Positions 5,453-21,005 of a stretch of DNA of 37,557 nt are shown here, in pieces (position 1 is the stretch's first letter; every line of letters starts with the position of its first letter). Made by a program: the position numbers and the translations under genes. The stretch comes from a virus: positions 1 to 37,557 of the IMG/VR virus record IMGVR_UViG_3300003323_001042, one strand, 5' to 3'. A model generated the notes under the pieces. The model was not told the origin of the DNA and ran no database searches. It worked only from the letters and a program-made list of their open reading frames with translations.

Positions 5453-5551
5453 GGGACGTTCGCATAGTTAGGCCTATTGCGCTCCGCTGTTAACGGAGTA
5501 AGAGTGAATAATCCTCACCCTTCAGGGGTTCAAATCCCCTACGTCCCGCCA
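5453..5551 (+). tRNA. tRNA-Asn(GTT) with an extended variable arm
   Basis: Acceptor stem GGGACGT/ACGTCCC (5453-5459, 5541-5547), discriminator G and encoded CCA (5549-5551). D-arm with GG in the loop. Perfect anticodon stem CTCCG/CGGAG with loop CTGTTAA, anticodon GTT at 5489-5491. T-arm AGGGG-TTCAAAT-CCCCT. The variable region is 25 bases (5499-5523) and forms its own stem, AAG-GTGA/TCAC-CTT, with one mismatch and a 7-base loop. Bacterial tRNA-Asn normally has a variable loop of about 5; long arms belong to Leu, Ser, Tyr and Sec tRNAs. It directly follows the structured RNA. Confidence 0.85.
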
Positions 5552-5609
5552 TTACAACACTGGGTTGTCAAAACAAAGTCTCTCTTATTCTAAGAAGTAT
5601 AGCACAAAT

Positions 5610-5629
5610 AGGAGTAGAATTCTATTCCT
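5610..5629. repeat. inverted repeat between tRNA and lysis genes
   Basis: AGGA-TAGAATTCTA-TCCT is a near-perfect palindrome with one unpaired base on each side. It lies about 70 bases upstream of the putative promoter at 5678 and could be an operator or transcript hairpin. The rest of 5552-5768 holds only that promoter and the late-type motif. Confidence 0.4.
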
Positions 5630-5677
5630 TTCTCTTATTATTCGCAAGATTTAAGACATTTTCATTTTAGTATCCTA

Positions 5678-5706
5678 TTGACGAAAAGTAAACAGAATTA
5701 TATTGG
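5678..5706 (+). promoter_or_regulatory. possible sigma-70-like promoter upstream of lysis genes
   Basis: TTGACG (5678-5683), 17 bases, then TATTGG (5701-5706). The -35 is good and the -10 weak; TATATT at 5699-5704 with a 15-base spacer is an alternative. It would place a start just before the shared late motif at 5717. Confidence 0.4.
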
Positions 5707-5716
5707 GTTTTTAAGG

Positions 5717-5737
5717 TTGCCGTCAATGCGTAAAATG
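5717..5737 (+). promoter_or_regulatory. shared late-type motif, copy 1
   Basis: The sequence TTGCCGTCAATGCG followed by TAAAATG matches, with 18 of 21 identities and only transitions, a copy at 22457-22477. Both begin 50-52 bases before the first ATG of a late transcription unit. TAAAAT could act as a -10 element, with the conserved upstream half as the recognition site of a phage-specific factor. See findings. Confidence 0.5.
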
Positions 5738-5768
5738 TTACGGTTGAGGAGATTCTTCAGCCATTTTT

Positions 5769-6290
5769 ATGCAAATATTCAAACAGCGTGATTATCCTCA
5801 TGTCCTTCTCGGTTCATCGAATCTTACCATAGCCGCCGACGGTTGCTATACCTGCGTTTTGGCTGAAATTAATAATATTTTCGGTGCAAATTGTACTCCC
5901 GACCAAGTAGCAGCGCATAAAGAGTTTTACACTTTAGATGGACAGATCATTAATACGAAACTTGACCTTCAAAATACTGTTTTCGATTGGTCTGGAGCAT
6001 GGGATCAATCTAAAGTCGATGAATATTTATCTGATTGGCAAAACAAACAAATGGCGGTGAAAATCCAGCTTCCTAGGGGACAGACTCATTTCATGAAAAT
6101 CGATCAAAAAAACTGGTTGGGACGATACCAGTGTGATGATCCTTGGAGTGGACAGAAAGTCGATATTGAACATTACGGGCCCATTATCGGAGTCCGGTAT
6201 TTCTCGAAACGTGAACAGCCCGTAAAATTCAATGTTCAGCCGATCAGCTCAGATACAACGGAAGTTACGCATAACCCGAACGGATTTTAA
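5769..6290 (+). CDS. papain-like (peptidase C39-type) endolysin candidate
   Basis: A 173-residue protein with the order of a cysteine peptidase of the C39-like fold: the N-terminus is followed by DGCYTC (nucleophile likely Cys26, possibly Cys29), a helix, then His107 in GQTHFMKID and Asp123/Asp124 in CDDPW, completing a Cys-His-Asp arrangement. No signal peptide is present, so release would depend on the holin encoded 41 bases downstream. Its position at the head of a lysis cassette suggests cell-wall peptide cleavage; the enzyme class is inferred from motif order only. Confidence 0.65.
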   Translation: MQIFKQRDYPHVLLGSSNLTIAADGCYTCVLAEINNIFGANCTPDQVAAHKEFYTLDGQIINTKLDLQNTVFDWSGAWDQSKVDEYLSDWQNKQMAVKIQLPRGQTHFMKIDQKNWLGRYQCDDPWSGQKVDIEHYGPIIGVRYFSKREQPVKFNVQPISSDTTEVTHNPNGF

Positions 6291-6331
6291 ACGTATACAC
6301 TAGACATTTATTATACATTAACTATACATAT

Positions 6332-6592
6332 ATGCCAAAAACTAAACCCTGGTACATGTCAGTCACGATCTGGTACAATATCGCTCTTGCAACGGTGCTT
6401 TTTCTTCAAACAATTTCAACATGGGTTCCATTTCCAATATGGCTAACTGCTGATTTACTCGCTGCGGGTAACTTTCTTTTAAGGTTCAAAACCGATAGTT
6501 CAATTTTAAGTTTACCGTCAAATCCGGCCCCAACAGTTGCAGATCAAAATGATCAAGCACCTTTAACCCCTCCTACTGATGTATCCAATTGA
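6332..6592 (+). CDS. phage holin
   Basis: An 86-residue membrane protein. After KPWYMSVTIWYN comes a transmembrane helix (about 14-30), a short turn with Trp/Pro, a second helix (about 36-50), then LLRFKTD and a Pro/Asp-rich cytoplasmic tail. This is the layout of a common phage holin family (two helices, LLRF motif, charged tail). It follows the endolysin candidate and overlaps the next gene by 14 bases. Holins permeabilise the inner membrane at a set time. Confidence 0.75.
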   Translation: MPKTKPWYMSVTIWYNIALATVLFLQTISTWVPFPIWLTADLLAAGNFLLRFKTDSSILSLPSNPAPTVADQNDQAPLTPPTDVSN

Positions 6593-6809
6593 AGGAATTG
6601 TTAGCCTCTACCTTTCAGACCTCGAAAAACGCCAGTCTAAGCTCGAAAATCTTCCAGCTGGTGATGAACGTGCGGTTCGCTCAGAAATCGCCAAGAAGGT
6701 GAGATCTCTCATTATGAACCTTGAACATGAGGTCATGAAAGGATTTCCCTTAGGAGAACGTATGGAGCGCATGATTGATGATATCGAAAAATATTTGGTG
6801 AAAATTTAA
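6579..6809 (+). CDS. small helical hypothetical protein in lysis operon
   Basis: 76 residues, highly charged and predicted fully helical (DLEKRQSKLENLPAGDERAV, then a second helix ending DDIEKYLVKI). It overlaps the holin gene by 14 bases, so co-translation is likely. No catalytic motif or membrane segment. Family not recognised. Confidence 0.65.
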   Translation: MYPIEGIVSLYLSDLEKRQSKLENLPAGDERAVRSEIAKKVRSLIMNLEHEVMKGFPLGERMERMIDDIEKYLVKI

Positions 6810-6827
6810 TTTTTTATTTTTTTATCT

Positions 6828-7097
6828 ATGAATTTCGGAGAAGCTTTAAATGCTCTAAAAAAAGGTTTTGCCGTTACCCGAAAAGGCTGGAATGGGAAAG
6901 GTATGTATCTCTATTTTGTTACAGAAAATCATTATCCTGCGGTAACTGAAATAGCGAAAAAACAATTTGGAGAAATAGTTCCTTATACTTCTTATATAGC
7001 TTTAAAGACGGCCCAAGATAAAGTTGTACCGTGGGTGGCTTCACAGTGCGATCTTTTAGAAGAAGATTGGGAAATGATCGAGAATGAAATGTCTTAA
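6828..7097 (+). CDS. tad2: DUF2829 / Tad2-like anti-Thoeris protein
   Basis: 89 residues with the DUF2829 signature: MNFGEALNALKKGFAVTRKG at the N-terminus, W-N-G-K-G-M, a middle strand PYTSYIALKTA, then VVPWVASQCDLLEEDW at the C-terminus. Members of this family (Tad2) are known to bind and sequester the cyclic ADP-ribose-type signal made by Thoeris ThsB, blocking the abortive response. Length matches the family. It is the last gene of the lysis operon, just before a bidirectional terminator. The family assignment is strong; the anti-Thoeris activity is inferred. Confidence 0.8.
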   Translation: MNFGEALNALKKGFAVTRKGWNGKGMYLYFVTENHYPAVTEIAKKQFGEIVPYTSYIALKTAQDKVVPWVASQCDLLEEDWEMIENEMS

Positions 7098-7117
7098 TTT
7101 ACGGCCCTAGAAAAGCC

Positions 7118-7152
7118 AAAAAGAGACGGAATATACATTGTCGTCTCTTTTT
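7118..7152. terminator. bidirectional intrinsic terminator
   Basis: AAAAAGAGACG (7118-7128) pairs perfectly with CGTCTCTTTTT (7142-7152) around a 13-base loop; the A- and T-runs give a U-tail on either strand. It separates the rightward lysis operon from the end of the leftward early operon. Confidence 0.85.
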
Positions 7153-7166
7153 GAATATGAATAAAA

Positions 7167-7544
7167 TTACTTTGATGGTAGTAATTCAGGGTTTTCGTAG
7201 ATGTTTCCGATAATTTCAAACCATTCTATATTACCTATTTTCTCCATAGGATTATGCAATAGATCAATCCAATTGTCTTGACGGACATAAAATGCAGCAA
7301 ACCCATCTCTATAAAATACTTCAAAAATTCCTAAAGGTGTTTGTAAAATATCCCCCTCAAAAATAAGCTTACCGTTCTTATCTTTGAGGCCGGTGCATTG
7401 CATGATTTCGCAATTTTCTTCATAAACTGGCTGTTCAGCGCGTTGTAAACGTCCAAGATGATAGCAATCCTGATCATATAGATCAAATTCAACCATAATT
7501 TTTTGCGTTTTATCCCAAGCCCTAAATTTAAATCGATCATTCAT
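7167..7544 (-). CDS. YopX-family protein, copy A
   Basis: 125 residues with the YopX hallmarks: start FKFRAWDK, centre MQCTGLKDKNGKLIFEGDIL, end IGNIYENPELL. YopX proteins are common in phages and prophages; their function is not established. This is the last gene of the leftward operon, and a second divergent copy lies at 10418-10852 in the same operon. Confidence 0.9.
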   Translation of the reverse strand: MNDRFKFRAWDKTQKIMVEFDLYDQDCYHLGRLQRAEQPVYEENCEIMQCTGLKDKNGKLIFEGDILQTPLGIFEVFYRDGFAAFYVRQDNWIDLLHNPMEKIGNIEWFEIIGNIYENPELLPSK

Positions 7545-7617
7545 AGTAAATTAAAATTATATCTACGAGAATTTATTCATTTTGTTTCCTTTGTGATTTT
7601 CAATATTTAATTTTGGA

Positions 7618-8052
7618 TTAAAAATCACCGTAATCGCACTGGAGACACGTAAGACCTATTGATCTCCACATTTTTACAACCTTATCACGGTCATCGATCA
7701 CGAACTCAATATCAAAATCCTCCTGAATATTTTCCATGAAAATTTCTTTTTTTACGATCGTATCATCTCGATTATCGCCGGTTTTTCTCATAAATATTTT
7801 GTCGTAACTTACCATATTATGAAGTAACCATGATTGCGTGATAGATTCATATTCCTGAGGACGTCCTGATACGATCAAAATCGAGTGAGTATCGTGAAAT
7901 TTGTCGATAATGCGACGACACCAGTGATTTACGTCATCTTTACCCATTTCAGCATAGAACGCTTTAAAATCGCCGTCCTGAGCGTGATGACGCCTATGTG
8001 TGCAGTTGGCGAGTGTGTCGTCCATGTCAATGATGATAGCTTTCGTTTTCAT
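7618..8052 (-). CDS. HAD-type polynucleotide 3'-phosphatase-like protein
   Basis: 144 residues. The N-terminal DMDDTLANC (Asp9, Asp11) is the HAD nucleophile motif; SGRPQEY is motif II and VIDDRDKVVKMW is motif IV, as in the phosphatase half of T4 polynucleotide kinase/phosphatase. There is no kinase P-loop, so it is phosphatase only. In T4 the enzyme heals RNA ends left by anticodon nucleases; here it shares an operon with unusual tRNA-like genes. No RNA ligase was found. Its ATG overlaps the upstream TGA (ATGA). Confidence 0.8.
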   Translation of the reverse strand: MKTKAIIIDMDDTLANCTHRRHHAQDGDFKAFYAEMGKDDVNHWCRRIIDKFHDTHSILIVSGRPQEYESITQSWLLHNMVSYDKIFMRKTGDNRDDTIVKKEIFMENIQEDFDIEFVIDDRDKVVKMWRSIGLTCLQCDYGDF

Positions 8053-8234
8053 TCTGATGTTTTGGTTAATTGATCCTCATTAAAGATATGCAACAATCGG
8101 TAATGATCCATTTCAACTACTATTCGTATATCACCTTTTGTAGTCTCGAATACTGAAACTACAGTACCAGGAAAACCATATCCTTTTGTCTTGTTGACTT
8201 TATCGCCAACTTTGAATTTAGAAAGTATTTTCAT
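8049..8234 (-). CDS. small KOW/SH3-like protein
   Basis: 61 residues, beta-rich, with FKVGDKVNKTKGYGFPGTVV, the pattern of a KOW-like small barrel. It overlaps both neighbours by ATGA. Possibly nucleic-acid binding; function unknown. Confidence 0.65.
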   Translation of the reverse strand: MKILSKFKVGDKVNKTKGYGFPGTVVSVFETTKGDIRIVVEMDHYRLLHIFNEDQLTKTSE

Positions 8235-8479
8235 TGTTTTGTTGGGTTAAGAATTTTCCTTTTAGTCTCATCGAATATAACTTTTAAAACTTCATTCATA
8301 ATTCCCCCCTGTATACAATCATGAATCTCTTGGACAATTTCAGCATCCTTCTCTTTCTGATCTTGCCGGACGGCTTCGAGAATTTTTTCAACATAATTAT
8401 GAATTCCTATCTCCATAACTTCTGGAGTGATTAATTGTTTTCTCCATTTTCCAAGAAGTCGTTGTTGTTCTTCAGTCAT
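8231..8479 (-). CDS. small helical protein, paralogue of 9500-9766
   Basis: Start chosen at the ATG at 8479 rather than 8506, because the resulting N-terminus MTEEQQRLLGKW aligns with MIPEQKQLLENW of the gene at 9500-9766. Both then carry the shared segment EAVRQDQKEKD and end in KILN. The protein is 82 residues, helical and charged. It overlaps the upstream zinc-rich gene by 8 bases and the downstream gene by ATGA. Function unknown. Confidence 0.65.
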   Translation of the reverse strand: MTEEQQRLLGKWRKQLITPEVMEIGIHNYVEKILEAVRQDQKEKDAEIVQEIHDCIQGGIMNEVLKVIFDETKRKILNPTKQ

Positions 8480-9047
8480 TTTGAGGTTGGTTAAAATACT
8501 TTTCAATCTTGTTTATTGCTTCATTTTTTGCCCAATAATCGGTGAAAATAAAATCATTTTCTATCATTCCTTTCAAATCCTCATAAATCTGCTGTTTTTG
8601 GGATTCTAGAAGATTTTTAATCAATTTAATAATTTGGTTTCTCCAGAAATCTGGATCATCTTTATTTTTATATTCTGATGTCTCAAACATGCAATGATTA
8701 CATGAATTTATCGGGCATGTGCACCAAATGCTTATGGGAGAGTGCCCGCATCCTTCATGACAACGGCATTCACATTTTTCACTTAATTCCAGATATTTTT
8801 TAACGCATCGACAATCAATTTTCCTTATTGTTAAAGGATTGTACCAAGATTCATCACCAACGAAATCTCCTCTAACGATATTTCCACCTTCAGCAACGGT
8901 AAAATATTTTTTATCGTAACAGTATTTGCAGTTTGGCTGCGACTTAGATTCTAAGTCTATATCTATTCCGATATTGCATTCATGGGAATGATCTTTTGTT
9001 TCTGTGCATCCAGGATCCCAAGTACATTTTTGATTTTCTTTATTCAT
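8472..9047 (-). CDS. Cys-rich zinc-binding hypothetical protein
   Basis: 191 residues. The first 120 contain about 18 cysteines with several His, in pairs such as NCKYCYDKK, CRCVKK, CECRCHEGCGHS and CTCPINSCNHC, suggesting several zinc sites; the last 70 residues are helical. No catalytic motif recognised. It is the first gene downstream of the tRNA-like gene at 9080-9154. Confidence 0.7.
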   Translation of the reverse strand: MNKENQKCTWDPGCTETKDHSHECNIGIDIDLESKSQPNCKYCYDKKYFTVAEGGNIVRGDFVGDESWYNPLTIRKIDCRCVKKYLELSEKCECRCHEGCGHSPISIWCTCPINSCNHCMFETSEYKNKDDPDFWRNQIIKLIKNLLESQKQQIYEDLKGMIENDFIFTDYWAKNEAINKIEKYFNQPQND

Positions 9048-9079
9048 AGCTTAAATTTAAGAATGATTAACCCCTAAAA

Positions 9080-9154
9080 GCAGACGACAGGATTCGAACC
9101 TGCATGGATGGTTCCGCGGCCGCACCCATCGCTTTCCAATTCAGCCACGCCTGC
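9080..9154 (-). tRNA. tRNA-like gene with enlarged anticodon loop
   Basis: On the minus strand, acceptor GCAGGCG/CGTCTGC with one wobble, TGGCTGAATTGGAAAGC as D-arm, and T-arm GCAGG-TTCGAAT-CCTGT are canonical. The only fully paired anticodon stem is GATGG/CCATC, which encloses 14 bases including GCGGCCGC instead of 7. The anticodon therefore cannot be assigned. The acceptor helix extends past the tRNA ends (TAAAA/TTTTA), giving 12 pairs. Twenty bases of its 5' end are identical to those of the tRNA-like gene at 20830-21005, so the two are related. Confidence 0.7.
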
Positions 9155-9203
9155 TTTTAAGGTTCAATTGATTCGGTTTTGTTAGGGACCAACGCGCGTT
9201 TGA

Positions 9204-9281
9204 TTAATCATGATAGAATTCCCCTTTTTGTCCGAATTCCAGAGCGAAGTGTTGCAACATCTCCGCCACTTGTAAGGCCAA
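9204..9281 (-). CDS. possible 25-residue peptide (TTG start) after the stop of 9303-9503
   Basis: From TTG at 9281 the frame reads as an amphipathic helix (ALQVAEMLQHFALEFGQKG) and ends TAA at 9204. It is in the same frame as the upstream 66-residue gene, separated only by TAA and a few codons, so readthrough or a decayed longer gene is possible. There is no ATG except an internal one. Weak call. Confidence 0.22.
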   Translation of the reverse strand: MALQVAEMLQHFALEFGQKGEFYHD

Positions 9282-9302
9282 GACCTCATGAAGGTTAAAT
9301 AT

Positions 9303-9503
9303 TTATAAATGTTTTAAATTAGATATTTTCTCTGAAAATTTTCTTGCCTGATCGTCAGTGACCTTGAATTCTGTTAGGGCTTTAATAAATTTTTCCATGC
9401 CATCCTCTGTAATCATAATTTGCCCATCATCAAGCTCAACTACTTCGATAAGGTATCCTCCAAATTCAAATTTTTCAGATTTTATTGCTTTGGGTTTATT
9501 CAT
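9303..9503 (-). CDS. small acidic hypothetical protein
   Basis: 66 residues: a beta-rich first half (FEFGGYLIEVVELDDGQIMI) and a helical second half ending SNLKHL. ATGA overlap with the upstream gene. No family recognised. Confidence 0.6.
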   Translation of the reverse strand: MNKPKAIKSEKFEFGGYLIEVVELDDGQIMITEDGMEKFIKALTEFKVTDDQARKFSEKISNLKHL

Positions 9504-9766
9504 AAGTTTTGGTTAAGAATTTTTTGTTGAAGTTCGAATCTTACCGTTTCAAATCCTGTTGAATCATGGCCATATTGATGATTACGTACTATTTGAACAT
9601 CCTTCTCTTTTTGATCTTGTCTGACGGCCTCGAGAAGTTTTTTTATAATTCTTATACTTTGTTTGCAATCAAGGCATAATTCAACTTTATAAGGCAACTT
9701 GATGCATCTCGCGCACCAAAAATTCTCTTTCCAATTTTCAAGCAGTTGTTTTTGTTCTGGTATCAT
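9500..9766 (-). CDS. small helical protein with CxxC pair, paralogue of 8231-8479
   Basis: 88 residues. It has CARC and CLDC near residues 18-33, a probable zinc knuckle missing from its paralogue, followed by the shared segment EAVRQDQKEKD and an end in KILN. Its TGA overlaps the next ATG. Function unknown. Confidence 0.65.
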   Translation of the reverse strand: MIPEQKQLLENWKENFWCARCIKLPYKVELCLDCKQSIRIIKKLLEAVRQDQKEKDVQIVRNHQYGHDSTGFETVRFELQQKILNQNL

Positions 9767-9769
9767 AAA

Positions 9770-9928
9770 TTATAAGTTTATAGGGTAAAAATCTTCATAT
9801 TCCCAGTCTTTGATCTTAACTTTTCCGTGTTTTTTGCAAATTCCGACAACTTCGACAATTTCATTATATCCTTCGCTAACAATTGCCGTATTATCTTTAG
9901 TAAATTTTCCGCATTCTGGACATTTCAT
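9770..9928 (-). CDS. 52-residue zinc-ribbon protein
   Basis: Begins MKCPECGKF and later has CKKH, a compact C2-CH metal site on a small beta-rich protein ending PINL. Its ATG overlaps the TGA of the upstream gene (ATGA). No family name assigned. Confidence 0.6.
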   Translation of the reverse strand: MKCPECGKFTKDNTAIVSEGYNEIVEVVGICKKHGKVKIKDWEYEDFYPINL

Positions 9929-10197
9929 AAATTAGAGAAAAATGATTCGATGTCTTTTCCTTCAATAAGATGTTCAATAAAAGAGTGCCATTTGAACTTC
10001 CAAGCCTCTACAATATGGCCTCTCACCTGAATTATCTCCCATCCCATCACATTCTCAAGAGATCGCCAGAATAACGGATCGAGGAAGAAAAGTTCTGGAT
10101 TTGCTCCAAGTGGAATTTCCCCATCTATATCAAAAATTTCACTCCCTTTTTTAAATCCACCTTCAATAGCTTTTTGGATTGTTTCTTCGAGAGTCAT
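9925..10197 (-). CDS. hypothetical protein
   Basis: 90 residues: an N-terminal helix (MTLEETIQKAIEGGFKKG), an acidic turn, and a Trp/Phe-rich second half (MGWEIIQ, AWKFKWHSFIEHLIEG). This resembles small phage proteins of unknown function. Coupled by ATGA to the zinc-ribbon gene downstream. Confidence 0.65.
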   Translation of the reverse strand: MTLEETIQKAIEGGFKKGSEIFDIDGEIPLGANPELFFLDPLFWRSLENVMGWEIIQVRGHIVEAWKFKWHSFIEHLIEGKDIESFFSNL

Positions 10198-10224
10198 AAG
10201 AATTAAGTAAAGGATTTAAGAAGG

Positions 10225-10389
10225 TTAAATTCCACGTTCTGGAGCATATCTTGCCGTAATCAATCCAAAACGATGGCATTTTTTATTTTGGCAATATCTA
10301 AATTCTAGGCTACTCCATTTTTCTAAAGTTCCTGCGCATTTTATACAGAACTCTCCCTTTTCAATCCGTTTTTCTTTCTTTTTGGTCAT
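10225..10389 (-). CDS. 54-residue zinc-finger protein
   Basis: A basic N-terminus (MTKKKEKRIEKGEF), then CIKC, a spacer, and YCQNKKCHRFG: a four-Cys zinc finger. It has the same orientation and spacing as its neighbours. Function unknown. Confidence 0.6.
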   Translation of the reverse strand: MTKKKEKRIEKGEFCIKCAGTLEKWSSLEFRYCQNKKCHRFGLITARYAPERGI

Positions 10390-10417
10390 GGTAATAAATC
10401 AGCTAAGAAATAAAGGG

Positions 10418-10852
10418 TTACTTTGATGTTAGTAATTCAGAATTTTCGTAAATGTTGCCGACAATTTTTAAATTGCCAGAATGCACACGAAGTCGTTCAT
10501 TGTAGGAAGATGCGTCTTTGTTCCATTTAACGATAAATTCACCTGGTACAAACTCAATAATCCCTGTTCTATCAAGCCATTCTACAATATCCCCCTCAAA
10601 AATAAGATTACCGTTCTTGTCTTTTAAACCGGTGCATTGCATGAGAACGCAATTATTTGATGAAATGTAACCCGCATTGCCAGAATTTATAGCAAAACAA
10701 TCATGGACTCCGTTTGATCTAACACCACAGTAACCATCATCAAATACTTCAAGATTATAACATTGGCATGATCCATCAGTTCCAACCTTCCAAACATCAA
10801 ACATCATTTCGCATTTTTTATGCCAAGCGCGAAATTTTAAACGATAATTCAT
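10418..10852 (-). CDS. YopX-family protein, copy B
   Basis: 144 residues with the same frame motifs as copy A: LKFRAWHKK, VLMQCTGLKDKNGNLIFEGD, IVGNIYENSELL. Between them is a longer Cys-containing insert (DGSCQCYNLE, YCGVRS). The conserved centre and end but different middle indicate an older duplication or separate acquisition. ATGA overlap with the upstream gene. Confidence 0.9.
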   Translation of the reverse strand: MNYRLKFRAWHKKCEMMFDVWKVGTDGSCQCYNLEVFDDGYCGVRSNGVHDCFAINSGNAGYISSNNCVLMQCTGLKDKNGNLIFEGDIVEWLDRTGIIEFVPGEFIVKWNKDASSYNERLRVHSGNLKIVGNIYENSELLTSK

Positions 10853-11298
10853 AGTAAATCAGCAATAAAAAATAATGTGGGGTCGTCCTGTTCGTGGAGG
10901 GGTTTGAGAAGGTTCCATTTTTGCTCAAATCGAATCTTTCCATTCCCCCAAATTGGATGAATAAGTTTATCCATGGCTTCATATAAGCTCAAATCAGAAG
11001 TAAATTCTTTATGAAGGGCAAGCAAAACATCCGCGAGCTGGATGTCTCGACCGAGGATAAAAAATACTTTCCAATTCAAGAATACCCGATCTCCTTTTTC
11101 ATAGGACATCAAGGCTGCTCTATTAAATTTCGTTCCATCATTGCAACACCAATATTGACCATTTGCATCCACAATAATTTTTTCCTCCTGACCATCACTT
11201 AATTTGCATCCAAACTTTAATTCCAAAATTGCAGGGTTGGCTTTCACACATGCAGCGTTGATTTTGTCGAGGGCTTCTTGTCGGGTCAAATTTTTCAT
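10849..11298 (-). CDS. hypothetical protein
   Basis: 149 residues. N-terminal helix (LTRQEALDKINAACVKA), a beta-rich middle with CKLSDGQEEKIIV and WCCNDGT, and a helical end WNLLKPLHEQDDPTLFFIAD. I do not recognise a named family. Coupled by 4-base overlaps to both neighbours. Confidence 0.7.
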   Translation of the reverse strand: MKNLTRQEALDKINAACVKANPAILELKFGCKLSDGQEEKIIVDANGQYWCCNDGTKFNRAALMSYEKGDRVFLNWKVFFILGRDIQLADVLLALHKEFTSDLSLYEAMDKLIHPIWGNGKIRFEQKWNLLKPLHEQDDPTLFFIADLL

Positions 11299-11489
11299 TT
11301 AGGTAAAATTAAAAATATAGCTATCCAGAAAATAATAATGATATAATTGATTGTTTTAGCATTATCTTCAGAAATATCTTTCCATCCAGTAAATTCTCCG
11401 TAAAGTACTGCTCCTGAAATTAATGTCGCAATATATCCCAATAAACAAAGTCCTGCTTCCTGAAAAATGTTCAAAGTGAAAATGATCAT
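11295..11489 (-). CDS. 64-residue two-helix membrane protein
   Basis: Two transmembrane helices, about residues 10-30 (CLLGYIATLISGAVLYG) and 45-62 (NYIIIIFWIAIFLIL). It sits in the early operon between NinG-like and hypothetical genes. Membrane-targeted early proteins can alter host physiology or exclude other phages; no evidence selects one role. Confidence 0.6.
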   Translation of the reverse strand: MIIFTLNIFQEAGLCLLGYIATLISGAVLYGEFTGWKDISEDNAKTINYIIIIFWIAIFLILPK

Positions 11490-13974: not shown

Positions 13975-14262
13975 TTATCGATATAAAATTTCATCTGGTA
14001 TTAAGAGCATCACAATGATCTCATTAAGAACGGCGTAATCTCTCTTTAAAAGATTTAGGGCTTCAAAATAAAATTCCTGCTTCGTTTTAGTGAATTTTTG
14101 GATGAGATCGAAGGTTTCCTCTTTTAAGATTCCTTCCGAATATCCAATGCAGATATAAATAAACTCAATTTTTGGGAAATAATTCCTGTAATATCCGTAG
14201 TATTCCCCACTGAGATAAAGGGCTATATTCGGAAGATTTTTTATAATATTTTCAGTTTTCAT
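13975..14262 (-). CDS. hypothetical protein
   Basis: 95 residues, Tyr/Phe/Ile-rich and helical (ALYLSGEYYGYYRNYFPKI near residue 20; LIQKFTKTKQEFYFEALNLL in the second half). No signal peptide. Family unknown. Confidence 0.6.
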   Translation of the reverse strand: MKTENIIKNLPNIALYLSGEYYGYYRNYFPKIEFIYICIGYSEGILKEETFDLIQKFTKTKQEFYFEALNLLKRDYAVLNEIIVMLLIPDEILYR

Positions 14263-14282
14263 TTGGGTTTAAAGTAAATAAA

Positions 14283-14696: not shown

Positions 14697-15040
14697 TTCA
14701 GAGTAGCATCATAGTCATTCGGGCAAGTCCATTGAGCTTTCTGGGCGTAGCATTGTTTCTGCACAGGAGTGAGTGAAGATTTTTGAGTTTCGAGAATATG
14801 AAGAGAAATAGAGGATTCGTTATCACAGAGAGCTTTTTGTGAACTGGTAAACGCTTGAGATATCGCTCCATGTTCATCGAGTTCTTTCTTGAGCTCCGCG
14901 TCCTGAGTCGGAACGAAAGCGTTGACGATTCCAATCGCCATACAGAACGTTACGAGAAGTAAAGTGAACCATTTAGCGAAACCAACGACGGCTTTTTGAG
15001 TGGTTTCAGAGTATTCGAATTGTTTATTTTCGGTTTTCAT
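14678..15040 (-). CDS. membrane-anchored protein with periplasmic Cys-containing domain
   Basis: 120 residues. One transmembrane helix (about 22-42, FTLLLVTFCMAIGIVNAFV) after a short cytoplasmic N-terminus; the outer part has four cysteines (ALCDNE, QCYAQ, TCPND, NCSNL) that could form disulfides. The overlap with the lysozyme-like gene suggests the two act together at the envelope. Function unknown. Confidence 0.6.
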   Translation of the reverse strand: MKTENKQFEYSETTQKAVVGFAKWFTLLLVTFCMAIGIVNAFVPTQDAELKKELDEHGAISQAFTSSQKALCDNESSISLHILETQKSSLTPVQKQCYAQKAQWTCPNDYDATLNCSNLK

Positions 15041-15075
15041 AAGAGTAATTTTTGTTTAAGAAATAAAATTAAGAA

Positions 15076-15252
15076 TTAGATTTTTTTATGTGGTCGATAT
15101 TCCGCATATTCATCAGAAATAACCGCTAAAGCCGACCAGAGGTGATTAATAAACGTAAGCTGTTTTTCCTTTTTACTTCTCCGGTTATCGCTTTGAATTT
15201 GGTTGAGAATATCGTAAATTTCTAAGATTATTTTTTTGAGTTTTTTGTCCAT
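15076..15252 (-). CDS. 58-residue helical protein
   Basis: MDKKLKKIILEIYDILNQIQ, a basic linker and a second helix with HLWSALAVISDEYAEY. No motif. It fills the operon with normal spacing. Confidence 0.55.
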   Translation of the reverse strand: MDKKLKKIILEIYDILNQIQSDNRRSKKEKQLTFINHLWSALAVISDEYAEYRPHKKI

Positions 15253-15262
15253 GAGGGAGTGG

Positions 15263-15478
15263 TTAAAGTATTGAATTTCCTTTTTCGTCTAAGGGAGTGA
15301 ATAGGTCATATTGACTCATCTCGAAATTTTTGAATTTGTTCCAAATGAATTCATGATGCTGTTCATAATTCTGGAACTCTACGAGTTCTCCCGAAGCAAG
15401 ACGAACAGTCAAAGGGTATTTAAGTCCCGTAAGCTGATTCCATCCAAAAGGAAGTCTTGGAATATAAATTTTCGACAT
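15263..15478 (-). CDS. 71-residue hypothetical protein
   Basis: MSKIYIPRLPFGWNQLTGLK, a beta-rich middle (VRLASGELVEFQNY) and an aromatic helix. It is the first gene downstream of the tRNA-like gene at 15556-15711. Unknown family. Confidence 0.6.
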   Translation of the reverse strand: MSKIYIPRLPFGWNQLTGLKYPLTVRLASGELVEFQNYEQHHEFIWNKFKNFEMSQYDLFTPLDEKGNSIL

Positions 15479-15514
15479 TGTTTTAATTTTTGTTAGGGAA
15501 TAAAAATTAAAGAT

Positions 15515-15533
15515 ACGCCGTTAAAAACGGTGT
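15515..15533 (-). terminator. hairpin downstream of tRNA-like gene
   Basis: ACACCGTT/AACGGCGT with a 3-base loop (8 pairs, one wobble), followed on the minus strand by a T-rich stretch. It lies about 23 bases past the 3' end of the tRNA-like gene and could be a weak terminator or processing signal. Confidence 0.4.
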
Positions 15534-15555
15534 AACTCTTTAGAAAGTTAAACTT

Positions 15556-15711
15556 TTCTGGCGGCGAGGATTTGACGAGAGTTTCGCTATTGGGCTTGAA
15601 TGGGCCTTGACACTCGTATAGTCACCTCGCATGTTCCTGTACTTAATTATCTTTTATACGGTGTACGGCAATGATAATCATGCTTGCGTCTACCTATTCC
15701 GCCACGCCAGA
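15556..15711 (-). tRNA. tRNA-Leu-like gene with 48-base T-loop insertion
   Basis: Minus strand. Acceptor TCTGGCG/CGCCAGA with discriminator A; D-arm GCGGAATAGGTAGACGC is typical of tRNA-Leu. Next come an irregular anticodon hairpin of about 16 bases and a long variable arm (GTAC/GTAC). The T-stem GCGAGG/CCTCGC is perfect, but its loop is 55 bases rather than 7. The normal loop appears as T...TCAAAT with an insertion beginning GACTATACGAG and ending CTCG, whose ends pair. No CCA is encoded. The anticodon is not assignable. A sister gene is at 20830-21005. Confidence 0.65.
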
Positions 15712-15791
15712 ATGCAGATGGATGTATGACAACCGGAAATGAAATCGGCAGCTTCTTATTTCCTGCGATATTCGAAGCCATCCATGTATTT

Positions 15792-16154
15792 TTACGTTTC
15801 AATTTGATTGGGGTCTGGAATTACCAGGTTGAACTCTTTTACAGCCCATCTTCGTATTCGTTCGCATAATTCTTCATCTTCTACCGTGGATAAATCCGAG
15901 GTATGTTTAACCTTAAATATCCACTTAATGATGCCTTTCATTTCTTCTTTCTCATACCCAAGATGATTCGCCAGCATTTCGATCACAACCCCGTGTAAAT
16001 ATCTGTTTTGCTTACCAGATCGTGGTTTCCTCTGTCTTCCTACTGTTACCGTTACTCGTTTACCTTCATGAGGAATAAACGCATTTTTGAAAGGTTCAAC
16101 GATGTCAGGATAGAATTTCCCGTTTTGGACTTCACCGTGAAATTTAAGAATCAT
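15792..16154 (-). CDS. ninB: NinB-like recombination protein
   Basis: Start at the ATG at 16154, which overlaps the upstream TGA (ATGA); an in-frame ATG at 16187 would add 11 residues. 120 residues with the NinB core: RSGKQNRYLHGVVIEMLANH, a helical GYEKEEMKGIIKWIFKV, and C-terminal IRRWAVKEFNLVIPDPNQ. NinB of lambda (Orf) is a recombination mediator that helps load recombinase on SSB-coated DNA, fitting the SSB-like and exonuclease genes just upstream. No recombinase of the Erf/Beta/RecT type was recognised. Confidence 0.7.
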   Translation of the reverse strand: MILKFHGEVQNGKFYPDIVEPFKNAFIPHEGKRVTVTVGRQRKPRSGKQNRYLHGVVIEMLANHLGYEKEEMKGIIKWIFKVKHTSDLSTVEDEELCERIRRWAVKEFNLVIPDPNQIET

Positions 16155-16588
16155 GGGGTTGTTGGAAAATGAATTTTTAGATGACATTTATTTTGAGAAG
16201 ATCTTTTACAAAGCCATATAACATCCAAAGGTCGTTGATAATTTGGATGATGGGCCTCTATATCTTCCAAATTACTGTTCGAACAAGATTCACATGGTAA
16301 CTTTTTTAATCTTCCATTTCTAAGTGCATTACTAACAGCCTGTCTTGCCTTATATTTTTCTGGATATTTTTGTCTCATCTTTTTACAAAGTTTTGTATAA
16401 TATCCAGAAATTGCTCTTTTCTCATTTCTATTCCTTTCAATAGATTTACCTTTTTCAGTTTGTAAATACTTCTTAATTCGTTTTTTTACACATTCCTTAC
16501 ATTTATTTAAATGTCCATCTGCCATTAAAGGGTGTACATAAAAACAATCCAACTCTTTTAGGGAGTTGCAGTTTAAACATTTTTTCAT
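16151..16588 (-). CDS. HNH endonuclease with atypical C-terminal finger
   Basis: 145 residues: N-terminal zinc pair CLNCNSL and CKECVKKR, a basic linker with TEKGKSIERNRN and YPEKYKARQAVSNALRNGRL, then the HNH part LPCESC, EAHHPNYQRPLDVIWLC and KCHLKIHF. This is a well-known free-standing phage HNH layout. The final Cys pair is normally LCxxCH; here it reads LCKRSSQNKCH, with extra residues between the cysteines, so zinc binding may be altered. These bases overlap the alternative start of the NinB-like gene. Confidence 0.75.
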   Translation of the reverse strand: MKKCLNCNSLKELDCFYVHPLMADGHLNKCKECVKKRIKKYLQTEKGKSIERNRNEKRAISGYYTKLCKKMRQKYPEKYKARQAVSNALRNGRLKKLPCESCSNSNLEDIEAHHPNYQRPLDVIWLCKRSSQNKCHLKIHFPTTP

Positions 16589-16604
16589 TGATATTGTTTA
16601 ATGA

Positions 16605-17252
16605 TTAAAACGGAAGACCATCTTCTGGATCAGGCATCTGGTCTGGAATATCAGAAGAGTCAACTTCACTTAGAATTACAGGTTTTTTTTCAGATTCCGT
16701 AATTTTGAGTTCTTGAAGTTTTTCAATGAGAAACGCTTCAACTTCCGCAAAATATGTTTTCCAGTAATTCTTTTTCAGCTTTTCTTTTTTCATCTCATCT
16801 ACCTCCGGGAATCCGTTACCTATTTTTTTACCATCCCAGAAATAATTCGTAAGCTTATTCCCGTTTTGCTGAAGGCTTATACCTTGTCTCTTTTTCCCAC
16901 CTTCGATCTCCATGTCATAGGGATGAAAAACCATTTCTTGGTTTAAATCTGCATTGAGAACTTTACAGGCGAAATCCGTAAAGTACCGACTGGAGGTGTT
17001 TAAGGTTAGGACTGCGTCTCCAAGGTCAATATTACAGACTTCTCCATAATCCGTTTCCTTGAAGAAAATGTTTTTGATTTTTCCGGTCCAGTTCATGAAG
17101 ACGAGTTCCCATTTTTCACCTTTTCCGCCATCTTTGAGTTCGTACTCTCGATGGCGAGCTCCTGGTGTTTCTTTATCGACTTTCTGGACGATGTTACCGC
17201 CTACGATGCTAAGATATGGTTTATTTGATCCTGAAATTGGTGTACCTGGCAT
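16605..17252 (-). CDS. single-stranded DNA-binding-like protein
   Basis: 215 residues. A beta-rich domain (about 45-150) with WELVFMNWTGKIKNIFF, CNIDLGDAVLTLN and aromatic-rich strands fits an OB fold. The C-terminal tail is acidic, low in complexity and ends DPEDGLPF, close to the DDDIPF tip by which SSB recruits partners. Its setting between PD-(D/E)XK nuclease and HNH/NinB genes suits a replication-recombination SSB. Fold assignment is inferred. Confidence 0.6.
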   Translation of the reverse strand: MPGTPISGSNKPYLSIVGGNIVQKVDKETPGARHREYELKDGGKGEKWELVFMNWTGKIKNIFFKETDYGEVCNIDLGDAVLTLNTSSRYFTDFACKVLNADLNQEMVFHPYDMEIEGGKKRQGISLQQNGNKLTNYFWDGKKIGNGFPEVDEMKKEKLKKNYWKTYFAEVEAFLIEKLQELKITESEKKPVILSEVDSSDIPDQMPDPEDGLPF

Positions 17253-17270
17253 AAATATAAAATTATAAAA

Positions 17271-18113
17271 TTAAACTTTGGATGAGTAACCTTTAGTGAT
17301 TTCTTTAATGATTTTTAATTCTTCATCGGAGTAACCGAGTCCGCACCCTTCTCGTTCGATAATGAGATTTTTATAAGGTGAATACTTTACCTGCCAATCT
17401 CCATACACAGCCCTATTCATTCGAGCATCCGAAATTGATGCCTTAGAAGCTTCTTTAAGTTTTTCAAGTTCATATTTGTACTTAAACTCACTTTTTGGTT
17501 CAATCTTCGGGATGATGTTATTTCGGTAAAGCCTAGCCCAGCGTTTATAAACATCCGTAATGTCGAAGCTAATAGAAAAACAAGTAAATACTGTTCCATT
17601 TCGCTTTAATTCGAATTCCCACGTATTTCCGGTACCTCTATCCATGTAAAAGAGAATTCCTCGATCGACATCAAGAAAATCCATATAGATGGCCAGCTGT
17701 TTGAGGTATGAGGTCTTTGGTTTACATGCGGTGAGTTCTCGTGCTTGGTAGTCTCCGTAAATGGTCTTTACTTCAATCGGAACTTTAACGTTATTCTCTT
17801 CGATGACAGCATCAATGTACCCAGTTACAGGAACCCCTTCTCGTTCCATTTCAACACGGTGTTGGGATGAATCGATCGGAACTAAGAATGTTGTAGATTT
17901 TTTAATTCTATCGACCAGAGCGACCTCGATCATCTTTGCGGCCTGAAACATAACGAGTTTTTCTGGTTCGATAGGGTTTGTGGGCGGTGTTCCCATCCAT
18001 CGGTGGTAAATATCGAAAACATTCGTTTCGGCTTCAGAGGCCCAAAAGCTTGTTTTTTCTCGATGATTTTTATCTTCTTCGAGAAGATGGGATTTTATAA
18101 TTTCTGTAAGCAT
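17271..18113 (-). CDS. PD-(D/E)XK nuclease (RecB/Cas4/lambda-exo type)
   Basis: 280 residues. Catalytic pattern: an N-terminal helix with Glu63, Asp101 in VTGYIDAVI, then VPIEVKTIYG (Glu114, Lys116), and a following Q-xxx-Y helix (Gln139, Tyr143 in YLKQLAIYMDFLD). This is the RecB-type exonuclease fold. No Cys cluster of Cas4 is visible. With SSB-, NinB- and NinG-like proteins nearby it likely resects DNA ends for recombination. Confidence 0.75.
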   Translation of the reverse strand: MLTEIIKSHLLEEDKNHREKTSFWASEAETNVFDIYHRWMGTPPTNPIEPEKLVMFQAAKMIEVALVDRIKKSTTFLVPIDSSQHRVEMEREGVPVTGYIDAVIEENNVKVPIEVKTIYGDYQARELTACKPKTSYLKQLAIYMDFLDVDRGILFYMDRGTGNTWEFELKRNGTVFTCFSISFDITDVYKRWARLYRNNIIPKIEPKSEFKYKYELEKLKEASKASISDARMNRAVYGDWQVKYSPYKNLIIEREGCGLGYSDEELKIIKEITKGYSSKV

Positions 18114-18119
18114 ATCAAG

Positions 18120-18317
18120 TTAAAATAAAGTAGGTTGATTTTGTTCCCGAAAGGTTAAATTTCTTATTCTAAGAAGTTTAGACCTTCCGGCGCATTTTCG
18201 TTCTCCCCTCTGGTACGGACAGGAATAACTTTCGTATTCCAGAAATTGTTCCAGTGGAAGACGATCTTTTAAATGACAGTTCAGGCATTGAAGCTCGACC
18301 CATAGAGAACTTTTCAT
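18120..18317 (-). CDS. 65-residue zinc-finger protein
   Basis: CLNCHLKDRLPLEQFLEY, then CPYQRGERKCAG: a compact four-Cys site followed by a basic tail. It lies between helicase and nuclease genes. Could be a replication accessory; no family recognised. Confidence 0.6.
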   Translation of the reverse strand: MKSSLWVELQCLNCHLKDRLPLEQFLEYESYSCPYQRGERKCAGRSKLLRIRNLTFREQNQPTLF

Positions 18318-18329
18318 AGTTTGAAGAGA

Positions 18330-19535
18330 TTAAGGTTTTTCTAGGAATATTTGACGACTTGGATAGTAAGTAAGTTCGATATTATCGATCTTACCGTTGC
18401 GGTTTTTAGCTATAATAAGTTTGGCATCTTGGGGAGTTATTGAACGATCACGATGAAGAAGCATGATGATGTCCGCATCTTGTTCGATACTTCCAGAATC
18501 CCTTAAATGGATAATCGATGGCTCTGCACTTTTTTCACTATCGCGATTCAGCTGTGCGGCGGTTAAAACGACACATTTCTTTTCTCCTGCTAATCTTTGA
18601 AGATTTTTAAGGATTCGTCCGATACGGTAAGTTTCAAGTTCTCCTCGTTCTTGTTTATCTCGTAAGAGTTGAAGGTAATCGACCACGACGAGATCAAACT
18701 TCATCTTACTTGCGAGATTTACGACTGTTTCCGATGTAGCACCTGGGGCATGAACGAGAAAAAAATATTTACCGATTGCAGTAAGCTCTTGAGCAATAAA
18801 GTTTTCATCGGCGATCGTGGATTTAATATCATGGAGATTATTTTTTGTTATTCCTGAAGCTAAACGATCGATAAGGCTATTCGTAGACATTTCCATGCTT
18901 ATGAACAACACTCGTTGCTGATAAACGGCTACCTGTTGAGCAAAATTCAAGCACCAAGCAGTTTTACCAATCGAAGTTCGTGCTCCAAGGACCACCAGTT
19001 CACCAGGTTCAAAATTCACGATTTCCGAGAGTTTCTTGAAATCATGAATAAGGCCTATAGCGCCATTTTGATGCATTCGTTCTTTTCGTTTCTTGTAGTT
19101 TTCGACATATTCAGGGATAAGATCGTTAATCGAGGTAATGAGATAACTTGTACCGATTTGTTCAATTCTTCTCATTTCGGATAGAAAGCTACCGGAATCG
19201 TTACAGTTCTCAGAAAGTTTCAATATCTCGTTCCGTTTGTAGTCTTCCTCAAGTCTCTTTACGGCCTCGATGTAATTCGTTCCGGTTAAGTATCGATCCT
19301 CTTGGAACAAAAATTTCAGTTCAGATATGGAGAATTTATTCGAGAGAGAAGCAATATCGATTTTTTGTCCTGTTTGAAGTCGTTCTCGAATTTCTATCCA
19401 TATTTTTTTAAGAAGTTCATCCGAAAAGTACGAATCTAAAAGTTCAATCTCGTGGTAAAGCCAAGGTCTTTGGCAAAGAGCTTCGAGGATTGAACCTTCA
19501 AGCTGAAGACGTTCGTGGTTCTGAAGGAGATCCAT
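18330..19535 (-). CDS. dnaB: DnaB-type replicative helicase
   Basis: Start chosen at the ATG at 19535 (401 residues), because MDLLQNHERLQLEGSILEAL is where DnaB N-terminal homology begins; upstream codons overlap the initiator gene and look non-homologous. N-terminal helical domain to about residue 110, then the RecA core: Walker A GARTSIGKTAW (184-194), FISMEMS, Walker B DLVVVDYLQLL (281-291) and AQLNRDSEK, and a late RDSGSIEQDADIIMLLHRD. It is somewhat short but has all core motifs. The initiator-like protein upstream probably loads it. No primase was found, so host DnaG is presumably used. Confidence 0.92.
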   Translation of the reverse strand: MDLLQNHERLQLEGSILEALCQRPWLYHEIELLDSYFSDELLKKIWIEIRERLQTGQKIDIASLSNKFSISELKFLFQEDRYLTGTNYIEAVKRLEEDYKRNEILKLSENCNDSGSFLSEMRRIEQIGTSYLITSINDLIPEYVENYKKRKERMHQNGAIGLIHDFKKLSEIVNFEPGELVVLGARTSIGKTAWCLNFAQQVAVYQQRVLFISMEMSTNSLIDRLASGITKNNLHDIKSTIADENFIAQELTAIGKYFFLVHAPGATSETVVNLASKMKFDLVVVDYLQLLRDKQERGELETYRIGRILKNLQRLAGEKKCVVLTAAQLNRDSEKSAEPSIIHLRDSGSIEQDADIIMLLHRDRSITPQDAKLIIAKNRNGKIDNIELTYYPSRQIFLEKP

Positions 19536-20241
19536 TTGTTTTTTTGTTAGAAAATATTTTTGAAAGTTCAACATCGATCTCTTCTTCCGTGAGTTGTTTA
19601 GGAAGGGGGGCGGCCGCAATGGGGGATGGATGATCTTTCCGGTACCAAGAGAGAAGAGTGTAGTAGTGGCTCTTGTATTTGACCCCTTTCGAGCCGATGT
19701 AACTGTTAAGGCGTGAAAGATAATCGTCGAACTGTACCTCGAGGACTTTACGGAGTTCAGCCTCTTCACGTTCCGATAAGAGAACGAAATCGAGGTGGCG
19801 TTTCTTTATATCATTTCTTTCTTTTATTTCTTTTATTTCATTAGTAGTGTTGGCATTTGCGTTCTGATCTTTACGCGGTTTGCGTTCGGAAGTGCGTTCG
19901 GAAAGAGGGTTATAAAAGTCATAATTTTCAATAGCTATAACGGAAAAGTGAGCGTTCGGTTTTATACGCAATGTGCGTTCGGATTTGAACGCGGAGAGCG
20001 TTCGGTTGACTTTATCTAGCGACCAATGCCACCTCTTCGAGAGTTGTCTTTGAGTTGTAGCGATTTCTCCCCGTTGGATGAAATAGTCGACTCCATTTCG
20101 ATTTATTTTTTTAGGTTCCGGGTTTCCGTTCGCGAGGAACAGAAGATCAATGAATGCTTCGAATCCACTAAATTCGCGGTTTCTATTCGCGGGATACAAC
20201 TTATGCTCCATAATTTTGTCCCAAAGTTTAATGAATCTCAT
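19498..20241 (-). CDS. replication initiator-like protein (winged helix)
   Basis: 247 residues. The first 70 carry FIKLWDKIMEHKLYPANRNR and, at about 50-85, GEIATTQRQLSKRWHWSLDK, a winged helix of the type found at the N-terminus of phage replication protein O/DnaD-like proteins. A polar linker follows, with a C-terminal helical region including a YTLLSWYRKDHP segment. The gene overlaps dnaB by 38 bases. Likely role: origin binding and helicase loading. Confidence 0.7.
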   Translation of the reverse strand: MRFIKLWDKIMEHKLYPANRNREFSGFEAFIDLLFLANGNPEPKKINRNGVDYFIQRGEIATTQRQLSKRWHWSLDKVNRTLSAFKSERTLRIKPNAHFSVIAIENYDFYNPLSERTSERKPRKDQNANANTTNEIKEIKERNDIKKRHLDFVLLSEREEAELRKVLEVQFDDYLSRLNSYIGSKGVKYKSHYYTLLSWYRKDHPSPIAAAPLPKQLTEEEIDVELSKIFSNKKTNGSPSEPRTSSA

Positions 20242-20242
20242 T

Positions 20243-20413
20243 TTATTTTTCGGATAGGTGGTAATAATTTTGAAGTTTTTCTTCGATTCTTTTTTTAGCT
20301 TCCTTTTTGGTGTCTCCAGTAGAAAAGCAAATCTGAAGACCCATCGAGGTGAACGCTTCCGCTAGTCATATTTGAAGATGAGGAAGCTTGGTTATTTTAA
20401 GGGTGTAGTTCAT
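20243..20413 (-). pseudogene. HicB-like gene interrupted by in-frame TGA
   Basis: Reading from ATG at 20413: MNYTLKITKLPHLQI, TGA (20368-20366), then LAEAFTSMGLQICFSTGDT, KKEAKKRIEEKLQNYY and a short tail to TAA at 20245-20243. Joined, this matches the HicB antitoxin pattern (N-terminal strand, a W-x-A-E-like segment, then GDT..EA....E.L..Y). Trp is common at the TGA position, so TGG to TGA is the likely change. TGA is a true stop elsewhere here, so this looks broken, unless the second half is translated alone from the ATG at 20344. No HicA was seen. Confidence 0.55.
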
Positions 20414-20424
20414 TGTTTTCATGA

Positions 20425-20490
20425 TTAGGAATAACCGTAAGTGCATTCGTAGCAGTTACAGTCAAGGTCGTGAGTAGAAGGGTATTTCAT
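20425..20490 (-). CDS. possible 21-residue Cys-rich peptide
   Basis: MKYPSTHDLDCNCYECTYGY and Ser, then TAA. Three cysteines in C-x-C-xx-C suggest metal binding. It lies 5 bases after the 67-residue gene in the same orientation. Weak because of its size. Confidence 0.35.
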   Translation of the reverse strand: MKYPSTHDLDCNCYECTYGYS

Positions 20491-20495
20491 AAGAT

Positions 20496-20699
20496 TTAGA
20501 TGGTTATGGTTTCGTCCGGTGGATCTGGGAGTAAATTTTCCATTTTCTTGAGAGTTTCAACGAGAGAATCTTTTGCCATTTCATAGCTTTTTTCGCTAAC
20601 ACTACATGTTATGAATTCCTCAGCTTCGTTATAAGCTTTAGCGACGTAGCAGAGGATATTTCCCTGGACTACAGAGGAATATTTGAAAGTGTATTTCAT
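20496..20699 (-). CDS. 67-residue hypothetical protein (HicB-like fold possible)
   Basis: MKYTFKYSSVVQGNILCYVA, then a helix (SYEMAKDSLVETLKKM) and a tail LPDPPDETITI. The beta-alpha order and Pro/Glu end resemble small HicB-like or DUF1902-type proteins. ATGA overlap with the upstream membrane peptide. Confidence 0.55.
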   Translation of the reverse strand: MKYTFKYSSVVQGNILCYVAKAYNEAEEFITCSVSEKSYEMAKDSLVETLKKMENLLPDPPDETITI

Positions 20700-20794
20700 G
20701 AGTATTTGAGGTTAAGAATGGTAATAACGATCCAGGTATAAGCTGCGCTACCAGCGAAAAAGGCTACACCCAGAAAAAAGGTGCGTAATGACAT
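20696..20794 (-). CDS. 32-residue membrane peptide
   Basis: MSLRTFFLGVAFFAGSAAYT and WIVITILNLKYS form one long hydrophobic stretch. Its TGA overlaps the next ATG, supporting translation. First protein gene of the leftward operon after the tRNA-like gene. Unknown role. Confidence 0.45.
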   Translation of the reverse strand: MSLRTFFLGVAFFAGSAAYTWIVITILNLKYS

Positions 20795-20829
20795 ATTTAG
20801 TGATTATGAATTAAGGCAATACCCTAGAA

Positions 20830-21005
20830 GCAGGCGGCGAGGATTTGACGAAGACCAATATGTTTCCTGGGCGTTTTACTTCCTGGGATTGGACTCGTAT
20901 AGTCACCTCGCATGCGCCTCGGCCATTAATGGAACTGGGCGCGAAACATCATAATTTCTGCGTCTCCTTGCATAGTTTTTCTCTATGTCTTTCCGCCACG
21001 CCTGC
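20830..21005 (-). tRNA. tRNA-Leu/Ser-like gene with D-loop and T-loop insertions
   Basis: Minus strand. Acceptor GCAGGCG/CGCCTGC is perfect and continues outward (TAGAA/TTTTA, then GCAATACC/GGTATTGC), about 20 pairs with one mismatch. The D-stem GCG/CGC encloses 31 bases with a hairpin CATAG/CTATG. The anticodon-like hairpin is GAAAT/GTTTC with only a 6-base loop. The variable arm is GCGCC/GGCGC. T-stem GCGAGG/CCTCGC encloses 63 bases, with the same insertion ends as at 15556-15711 (TGACTATACGAG...CGTCAAAT). It is the first element transcribed from the leftward promoter. Confidence 0.62.

Follow-up and report, generated by a model that had tools for sequence, protein, structure and literature searches.

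The stretch analysed here, referred to as the window, comprises 37,557 nucleotides (positions 1 to 37,557) of the IMG/VR virus record IMGVR_UViG_3300003323_001042. A preliminary description, made from the letters alone, had reported four tRNA-like genes in it, each expanded in a different loop. Between them, ARAGORN, Rfam, covariance models and folding placed tRNA-like structures at these positions: a tRNA-Asn at 5453-5551 (plus strand), a small tRNA-like RNA at 9079-9154 (minus strand) and two longer elements at 15556-15711 and 20830-21005 (both minus strand). The four structures are three different things, in agreement with the earlier remark that no single intron type explains all of them. 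ARAGORN and Rfam detected only the structures at 5453-5551 and 9079-9154; ARAGORN called no gene at 15556 or 20830 and one undefined gene at 9078-9155. The remaining two were recovered with R2, a covariance model trained on 24 relatives that carry the insert, the window not being among them. They are not tRNAs with grown loops, as had been proposed, since the anticodon arm is absent from both; they are members of a family of phage RNAs that we call type I. The sequence similarities described between the elements held as well. The 20-nt identity between the 9079 and 20830 elements is exact (ACCTTAAAAGCAGGCGTGGC), and the insert ends common to two elements contain the motif GAGGTGACTATACGAG, which occurs twice compared to 0.12 expected occurrences.

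The element at 15556-15711, which also carries the motif common to 41 IMG/VR contigs described below, matched R2 with 78.9 bits (E 1.8e-17) and the element at 20829-21005 with 59.1 bits (E 1.2e-12), where the E-values are rough; with filters off, R2 gave poorer, partial alignments of both than with filters on. In the 15556 element, the acceptor 5′ strand TCTGGCG (15705-15711) pairs with 15557-15563 and is followed by a tRNA-Leu-type D arm, TGGCGGAATAGGTAGACGC (15686-15704), which is the same as the family consensus. An H-type pseudoknot (15636-15685) stands in place of both anticodon and variable arm; in it, 15673-15678 pairs with 15646-15651 (6 bp) inside the helix formed by 15663-15668 and 15636-15642 (6 bp with a bulged A); this architecture is supported family-wide. 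A 48-nt insert (15575-15622) lies in the T-loop between G55 and C56 and forms a hairpin closed by CGAG/CTCG. The 20830 element has the same plan, with a 56-nt T-loop insert (20848-20903) and an extra D-loop hairpin, CATAG/CTATG (20971-20987); the inserts and this hairpin agree with the preliminary description. Its pseudoknot cassette (20912-20959) consists of the closing helix GCGCC/GGCGC and a weak, putative 5-bp pairing of TGATG with CATTA. Judging from the minimum free energy fold and the sequence, the element is enclosed by an extended base stem, GCAATACCTTAAAAGCAGGCG / CGCCTGCTTCTAGGGTATTGC (20816-21019), which is about 20 bp long, contains one mismatch and partly has the same sequence as the base stem of about 15 bp of the 9079 element. 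That these two stems run well past 7 bp, and that 15556 and 20830 have no anticodon arm, had not been noticed before.

Both type I elements lie among leftward early genes, and the 20830 element is the first feature after promoter-like sites at about 21110-21300 (consensus matches only). A perfect sigma-70 consensus (TTGACA-17-TATAAT) is found at 21334-21362 on the plus strand, ahead of the rightward late genes. Ordinary tRNAs in related genomes had been named as a sign of an assembly error. When we checked the relatives L179 and L211, whose TerL is 61-66% identical to that of the window, the same insert-bearing element was present 1.6-2.4 kb upstream of the terminase, on the opposite strand to the arrangement in the window. 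The window element is therefore not an assembly error.

Type I RNAs are defined by a 7-bp acceptor, a tRNA-Leu-type D arm, an H-type pseudoknot, a 6-bp T stem and the T-loop UGCAAAU. The window elements have the Leu-type D arm, the pseudoknot cassette, the 6-bp T stem and U54-G55...C56AAAU60, as judged with a model independent of the window. A split T-loop pattern (GGTGACTATACGAG-N20-50-GTCAAATCC), which covers the T-loop only, matched 41 IMG/VR contigs, and a slightly looser version matched seven bacterial genome contigs. Although the D arm is outside this search pattern, TGGCGGAATAGGTAGACGC was found within three substitutions in 28 of the 41 matches, and others have it with an indel; most loci found by the T-loop motif alone also had the 6-bp T stem and a closing helix of at least seven pairs. 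Searching with the D arm gave at least 120 matches, most of them insert-free, and 69 of 77 short loops had the T-loop UGCAAAU. All seven acceptor pairs showed compensatory changes on both sides (covariation 0.70 compared to 0.17 ± 0.01 in shuffled sequences). Since pairing was one of the grounds on which members of the model were selected, the share of paired positions does not count as independent evidence; the variety of pair types does, and so does the pairing at loci that the T-loop motif alone had picked out. In the model alignment the D-stem is without any variation, G55 is constant, and the residues of tRNA tertiary contacts U8, A14, A15, G18, G19, U48, U54 and C56 are invariant.

Type I elements thus have the acceptor, D and T arms of the L-fold of a decoding tRNA. 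They do not have its U55, which is replaced by G55 in 69 of the 77 short loops and without exception in the 47 loops with an insert, and the 15556 and 20830 elements have no 7-nt anticodon loop with an anticodon. Between D arm and T stem, 36-151 nt of mutually unrelated sequences take the place of the anticodon arm. Two pairings recur in these middle regions. One is a helix, H1, with a 3′ strand that stops immediately ahead of the constant U48; in the other, the inner pairing, the segment that follows the D arm pairs with bases inside H1, and an H-type pseudoknot results. The H1 closing helix reached 13.3 compared to 9.7, and the inner pairing 11.88 compared to 10.35 ± 0.30 after permutation, with strands exchanged among sequences as controls. 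Type I RNAs cannot decode, because the hypervariable pseudoknot replaces both anticodon and variable arms. A role of the middle region as guide RNA was rejected, since its longest match elsewhere in its own locus was 9.66 compared to 9.69 for shuffled sequences. The discriminator varies (A in 55 members, T in 27, C in 25 and G in 6; n=113), CCA follows in only 2 members, and pairing often extends past position 7, most markedly in the insert class.

Type I elements were found, unannotated, in more than 150 IMG/VR contigs and, by BLAST and model R1, in named phages. In Bacillus phage SPP1 the element lies between genes 9 and 11, and in phi3T within the 1.7 kb that separate an HU-type gene from yonK; an ORF-free stretch of 1.7 kb next to it (L171, 2955-4679) contains many apparent hairpins and a match to the DUF3800-VIII RNA. 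In Bacillus phage Grass and in Enterococcus Schiekvirus it is part of tRNA arrays, in Schiekvirus directly after the phage tmRNA. Further members were found in Listeria phages LP-037 and LP-101, Leuconostoc Ln-9, Lactobacillus phiJL-1 and Paenibacillus Pd_22F, and a minimal form in Enterococcus phiFL2A. P100 has a divergent copy (acceptor ATACTCG, T-loop UGAAAAU) that R1 does not recognise as a full member. In named phages, complete members scored 60-72 bits with R1, phage tRNA-Leu 37-42 bits and other tRNAs at most about 25 bits; in six bacterial genomes the best matches were 83-84-nt stretches of up to 49 bits, which are probably their own tRNA-Leu genes. Type I elements usually lie in non-coding DNA that comprises about 300 further bases, and in L055 a ROOL RNA ends 14 nt upstream of the element. 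The family is absent from Rfam 15, the 2018 re-annotation of SPP1 does not mention tRNA, and no matching description was found in the openly licensed PMC literature, although it may have been described or named elsewhere. A multi-omics study of a P100-like phage reported very abundant non-coding transcripts and suggested tRNA-mimic Y RNAs (PMC12282133); the type I element could not be placed there. Type I is, then, a large, widespread and apparently unnamed family of phage non-coding RNAs.

The most telling feature of the family is the combination of a constant body with an exchangeable head. At the orthologous locus of the Enterococcus phages 21C1 and EFDG1, the flanks are identical at 337/350 and 108/110 positions, the acceptor is identical and the T stem differs by one compensated pair (GCAAGG/CCTTGC compared to GTAAGG/CCTTAC). 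The middle regions are 76 nt and 151 nt long, and their similarity is no higher than that of shuffled sequences. The siphophage record L061 has the 21C1 middle again, with 75/76 positions identical, amid unrelated flanks, which indicates that the element moves as a unit. In phiFL2A the 3′ flank of L061 is kept at 119/120 positions, while the middle has been lost and a 51-nt form is left.

The element at 9079-9154 is a small tRNA-like RNA without a usable anticodon, set on a base stem of about 15 bp (9072-9085 with 9148-9162). It scored 46.1 bits with the Rfam tRNA model, 29.6 bits with R1 and 21.2 bits with R2. The 14-nt loop reported earlier lies at 9112-9125 and contains a perfect 8-base palindrome, GCGGCCGC, which could form a kissing dimer. 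The element resembles small anticodon-less tRNA-like RNAs beside type I elements in phiJL-1, phiFL2A, SPP1, L019/L036 (23 nt away), L095, L026 and L268/L272; L268 and L272 have the ATGGGT...AACCAT hairpin in common with it. A 31-base pattern made for it found no other copy; a looser pattern found L268/L272 and L026. Judging from these resemblances, it probably represents a second, smaller anticodon-less type (type II) that follows the same idea as type I. Candidates for this type, often near type I, were noted in L257 (3167-3242), L254 (3390-3448), L165 (3541-3586), L019 (1852-1920), L026 (844-948), L268 and L272. At 7618-8052 (minus strand), 1 kb from the 9079 element, the window encodes a stand-alone domain that matches phage polynucleotide kinase families (phrog_505) in their C-terminal, phosphatase-like half; among the proteins scanned there was no ligase.

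The structure at 5453-5551 was identified by ARAGORN and Rfam (48.5 bits) as tRNA-Asn(GUU), with the anticodon in a normal loop, an encoded CCA and discriminator G. The 25-nt structured variable arm described before lies at 5499-5523 and folds as 3+4 bp. With only 14.8 bits in R1 it stands outside the type I family, and from its sequence it is probably a working tRNA-Asn of ordinary function with an enlarged variable arm. A pattern for such long-variable-arm tRNA-Asn genes gave no matches; ARAGORN reports a 94-nt tRNA-Asn(gtt) in another phage contig (L271, 2943-3036) that possibly has a similar arm. A Tad2-like protein (PF11195, Thoeris anti-defence 2 fold; E 6.4e-27) is encoded at 6828-7097 on the plus strand.

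Among known RNAs, type I shares the D arm, the 7-bp acceptor and A15-U48 with class II tRNA-Leu, from which it has its probable origin; it differs by the lack of an anticodon arm, the pseudoknot, the 6-bp T stem, G55 and the variable discriminator. Mycobacteriophage DS6A carries a tmRNA reduced to its tRNA-like domain, and a molecule of similar kind is a strong inhibitor of tmRNA, perhaps through titration of SmpB (PMC4131195). Like type I it is a phage-encoded tRNA-like body whose functional middle has been removed, but its body is of Ala/tmRNA type without a pseudoknot cassette, whereas type I has a Leu-type D arm and no RF00023 match. The tmRNA model matched nothing in the window, and in SPP1 gave only 9.8 bits on a neighbouring T-arm; a tmRNA was accordingly rejected. 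YrlA (RF02553) likewise combines a stem with a tRNA-like D/T module, does not decode and also occurs in phages. However, Rfam's YrlA is permuted (T arm, acceptor-like stem, D arm), whereas type I keeps the normal D-to-T order. With the arm order wrong and RF02553 matching neither the window, SPP1 nor any type I element, a Y RNA was rejected. Two YrlA-like RNAs of 45.9 and 34.4 bits, below the Rfam cut-off, were seen in 21C1 (L261; PV945455, 138222-138335 and 138406-138513, minus strand), inside the tRNA array of this Gram-positive phage and with no Rsr gene in the record. ROOL and GOLLD are also large non-coding phage RNAs near tRNA islands, and ROOL abuts type I in L055, but they are 500-800 nt long and of unrelated fold.

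In insert-bearing members U54-G55 is constant, whereas CAAAU may be preceded by U, G or A, and the insert therefore sits between G55 and C56. It is 21-87 nt long and usually forms a hairpin closed by CGAG/CTCG, and its closing pairs covary (CTCGG/CCGAG in L144, CGAA/TTCG in L111, TAGGA/TCCTA in L045). The preliminary description had offered unusual small introns as one possible role, and small self- or protein-spliced T-loop introns in otherwise normal tRNAs were considered accordingly. Joining U54 to UCAAAU would give back UUCAAAU, and T-loops of tmRNAs do carry group I introns, although in those genes, of at least 545 bp, the intron splices (PMC11915505), while type I has a short hairpin and neither anticodon nor tag. 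The insert-free relatives, which are commoner, have UGCAAAU and not UUCAAAU, the constant U54-G55 with a variable base ahead of CAAAU, the covarying ends and the small size of the insert also speak against it, and splicing would leave an RNA that still has no anticodon arm. A group I intron was rejected, since its core takes roughly 200 nt or more and no Rfam intron matched in the window; the resemblance of GACTATA to a group I P7 was also discarded, as there is no AGTC partner. An archaeal bulge-helix-bulge intron, with a conserved 4-bp helix and 3-nt bulges, fails as well, because TGAC/GTCA, the only such pairing in the insert class, is lost in GGCA variants (13 of 47). Of all the explanations weighed here, splicing is the least likely.

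We consider it probable that type I RNAs are phage-made, non-decoding tRNA mimics, with a tRNA-Leu body and a hypervariable pseudoknot, that bind or titrate a host factor. The RNA would be transcribed as a stable RNA, would fold into the L-shaped tRNA elbow and would imitate elbow and acceptor without a role in translation; candidate partners are RNase P, LeuRS, EF-Tu, SmpB or a tRNA-targeting defence nuclease, and the fast-evolving pseudoknot may tune or protect the mimicry. A decoy or ligand for a factor reading the tRNA elbow is most likely: unrelated phages have all retained the D arm, G55 and tertiary contacts, a discriminator that is not conserved makes charging unlikely, and tmRNA inhibition of the DS6A type gives a precedent (PMC4131195). 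Of the roles first offered, decoy tRNA-mimic RNAs fit best; escape from anticodon or T-loop nucleases does not fit RNAs that have no anticodon arm to decode with. Several points weigh against mimicry. G55 in place of U55 weakens the standard elbow, and many insert-class members stand on base stems of 10-26 bp, which are rare in the insert-free subclass, so that these members may not be freed with the ends of a tRNA. The family is not linked to any partner protein, and Rsr (TROVE, PF05731) is absent from 14 phage records, a host Rsr being possible. The main rival is that the tRNA-like body is a signal for RNase P or tRNA-end processing that trims neighbouring non-coding RNAs or late mRNAs, with the pseudoknot as filler. 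The ROOL RNA ending 14 nt before the element in L055, the position of elements in tRNA arrays, directly after a phage tmRNA or in non-coding regions, several hundred bases long, that hold other structured RNAs, and the conserved acceptor/T-stem stack all speak for such punctuation, which we regard as possible but not probable. It leaves the invariant D-stem and constant G55 unexplained, the pairing past position 7 hides the RNase P site, and several members have no other non-coding RNA beside them. That LeuRS charges the RNA and the leucine is donated outside the ribosome seems very unlikely: the tRNA-Leu-type D arm, A14/A15 and U48 are kept and bacterial LeuRS has no need of the anticodon, but A73, a strong leucine determinant in bacteria, is found in only 55 of 113 members and CCA hardly ever follows. 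Still less credit is given to degenerate phage tRNA genes under relaxed selection. Decaying tRNAs occur in phages and the middle regions have no sequence in common, but this explanation is already contradicted by the compensatory changes at all acceptor pairs, and the constant G55, the pseudoknot signal and the wide spread also stand against it.

A more specific form of the mimicry reading, which we put forward only tentatively, is a new class of counter-host RNAs with a constant elbow as handle and an exchangeable, rapidly diversifying pseudoknot as head that is swapped between phages, where the head and, in the subclass, the elbow hairpin would set specificity for different host targets. Type I RNAs lie unannotated in textbook phages such as SPP1 and phi3T and in many Listeria and Enterococcus phages. 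If expressed, they would provide a ready system in which to ask why phages carry tRNA-like genes, which has been debated for decades, and SPP1 and B. subtilis are genetically tractable. The conservation of the body across unrelated phages, alongside a middle that can be exchanged completely, suggests an arms race with a host factor recognising the tRNA elbow.

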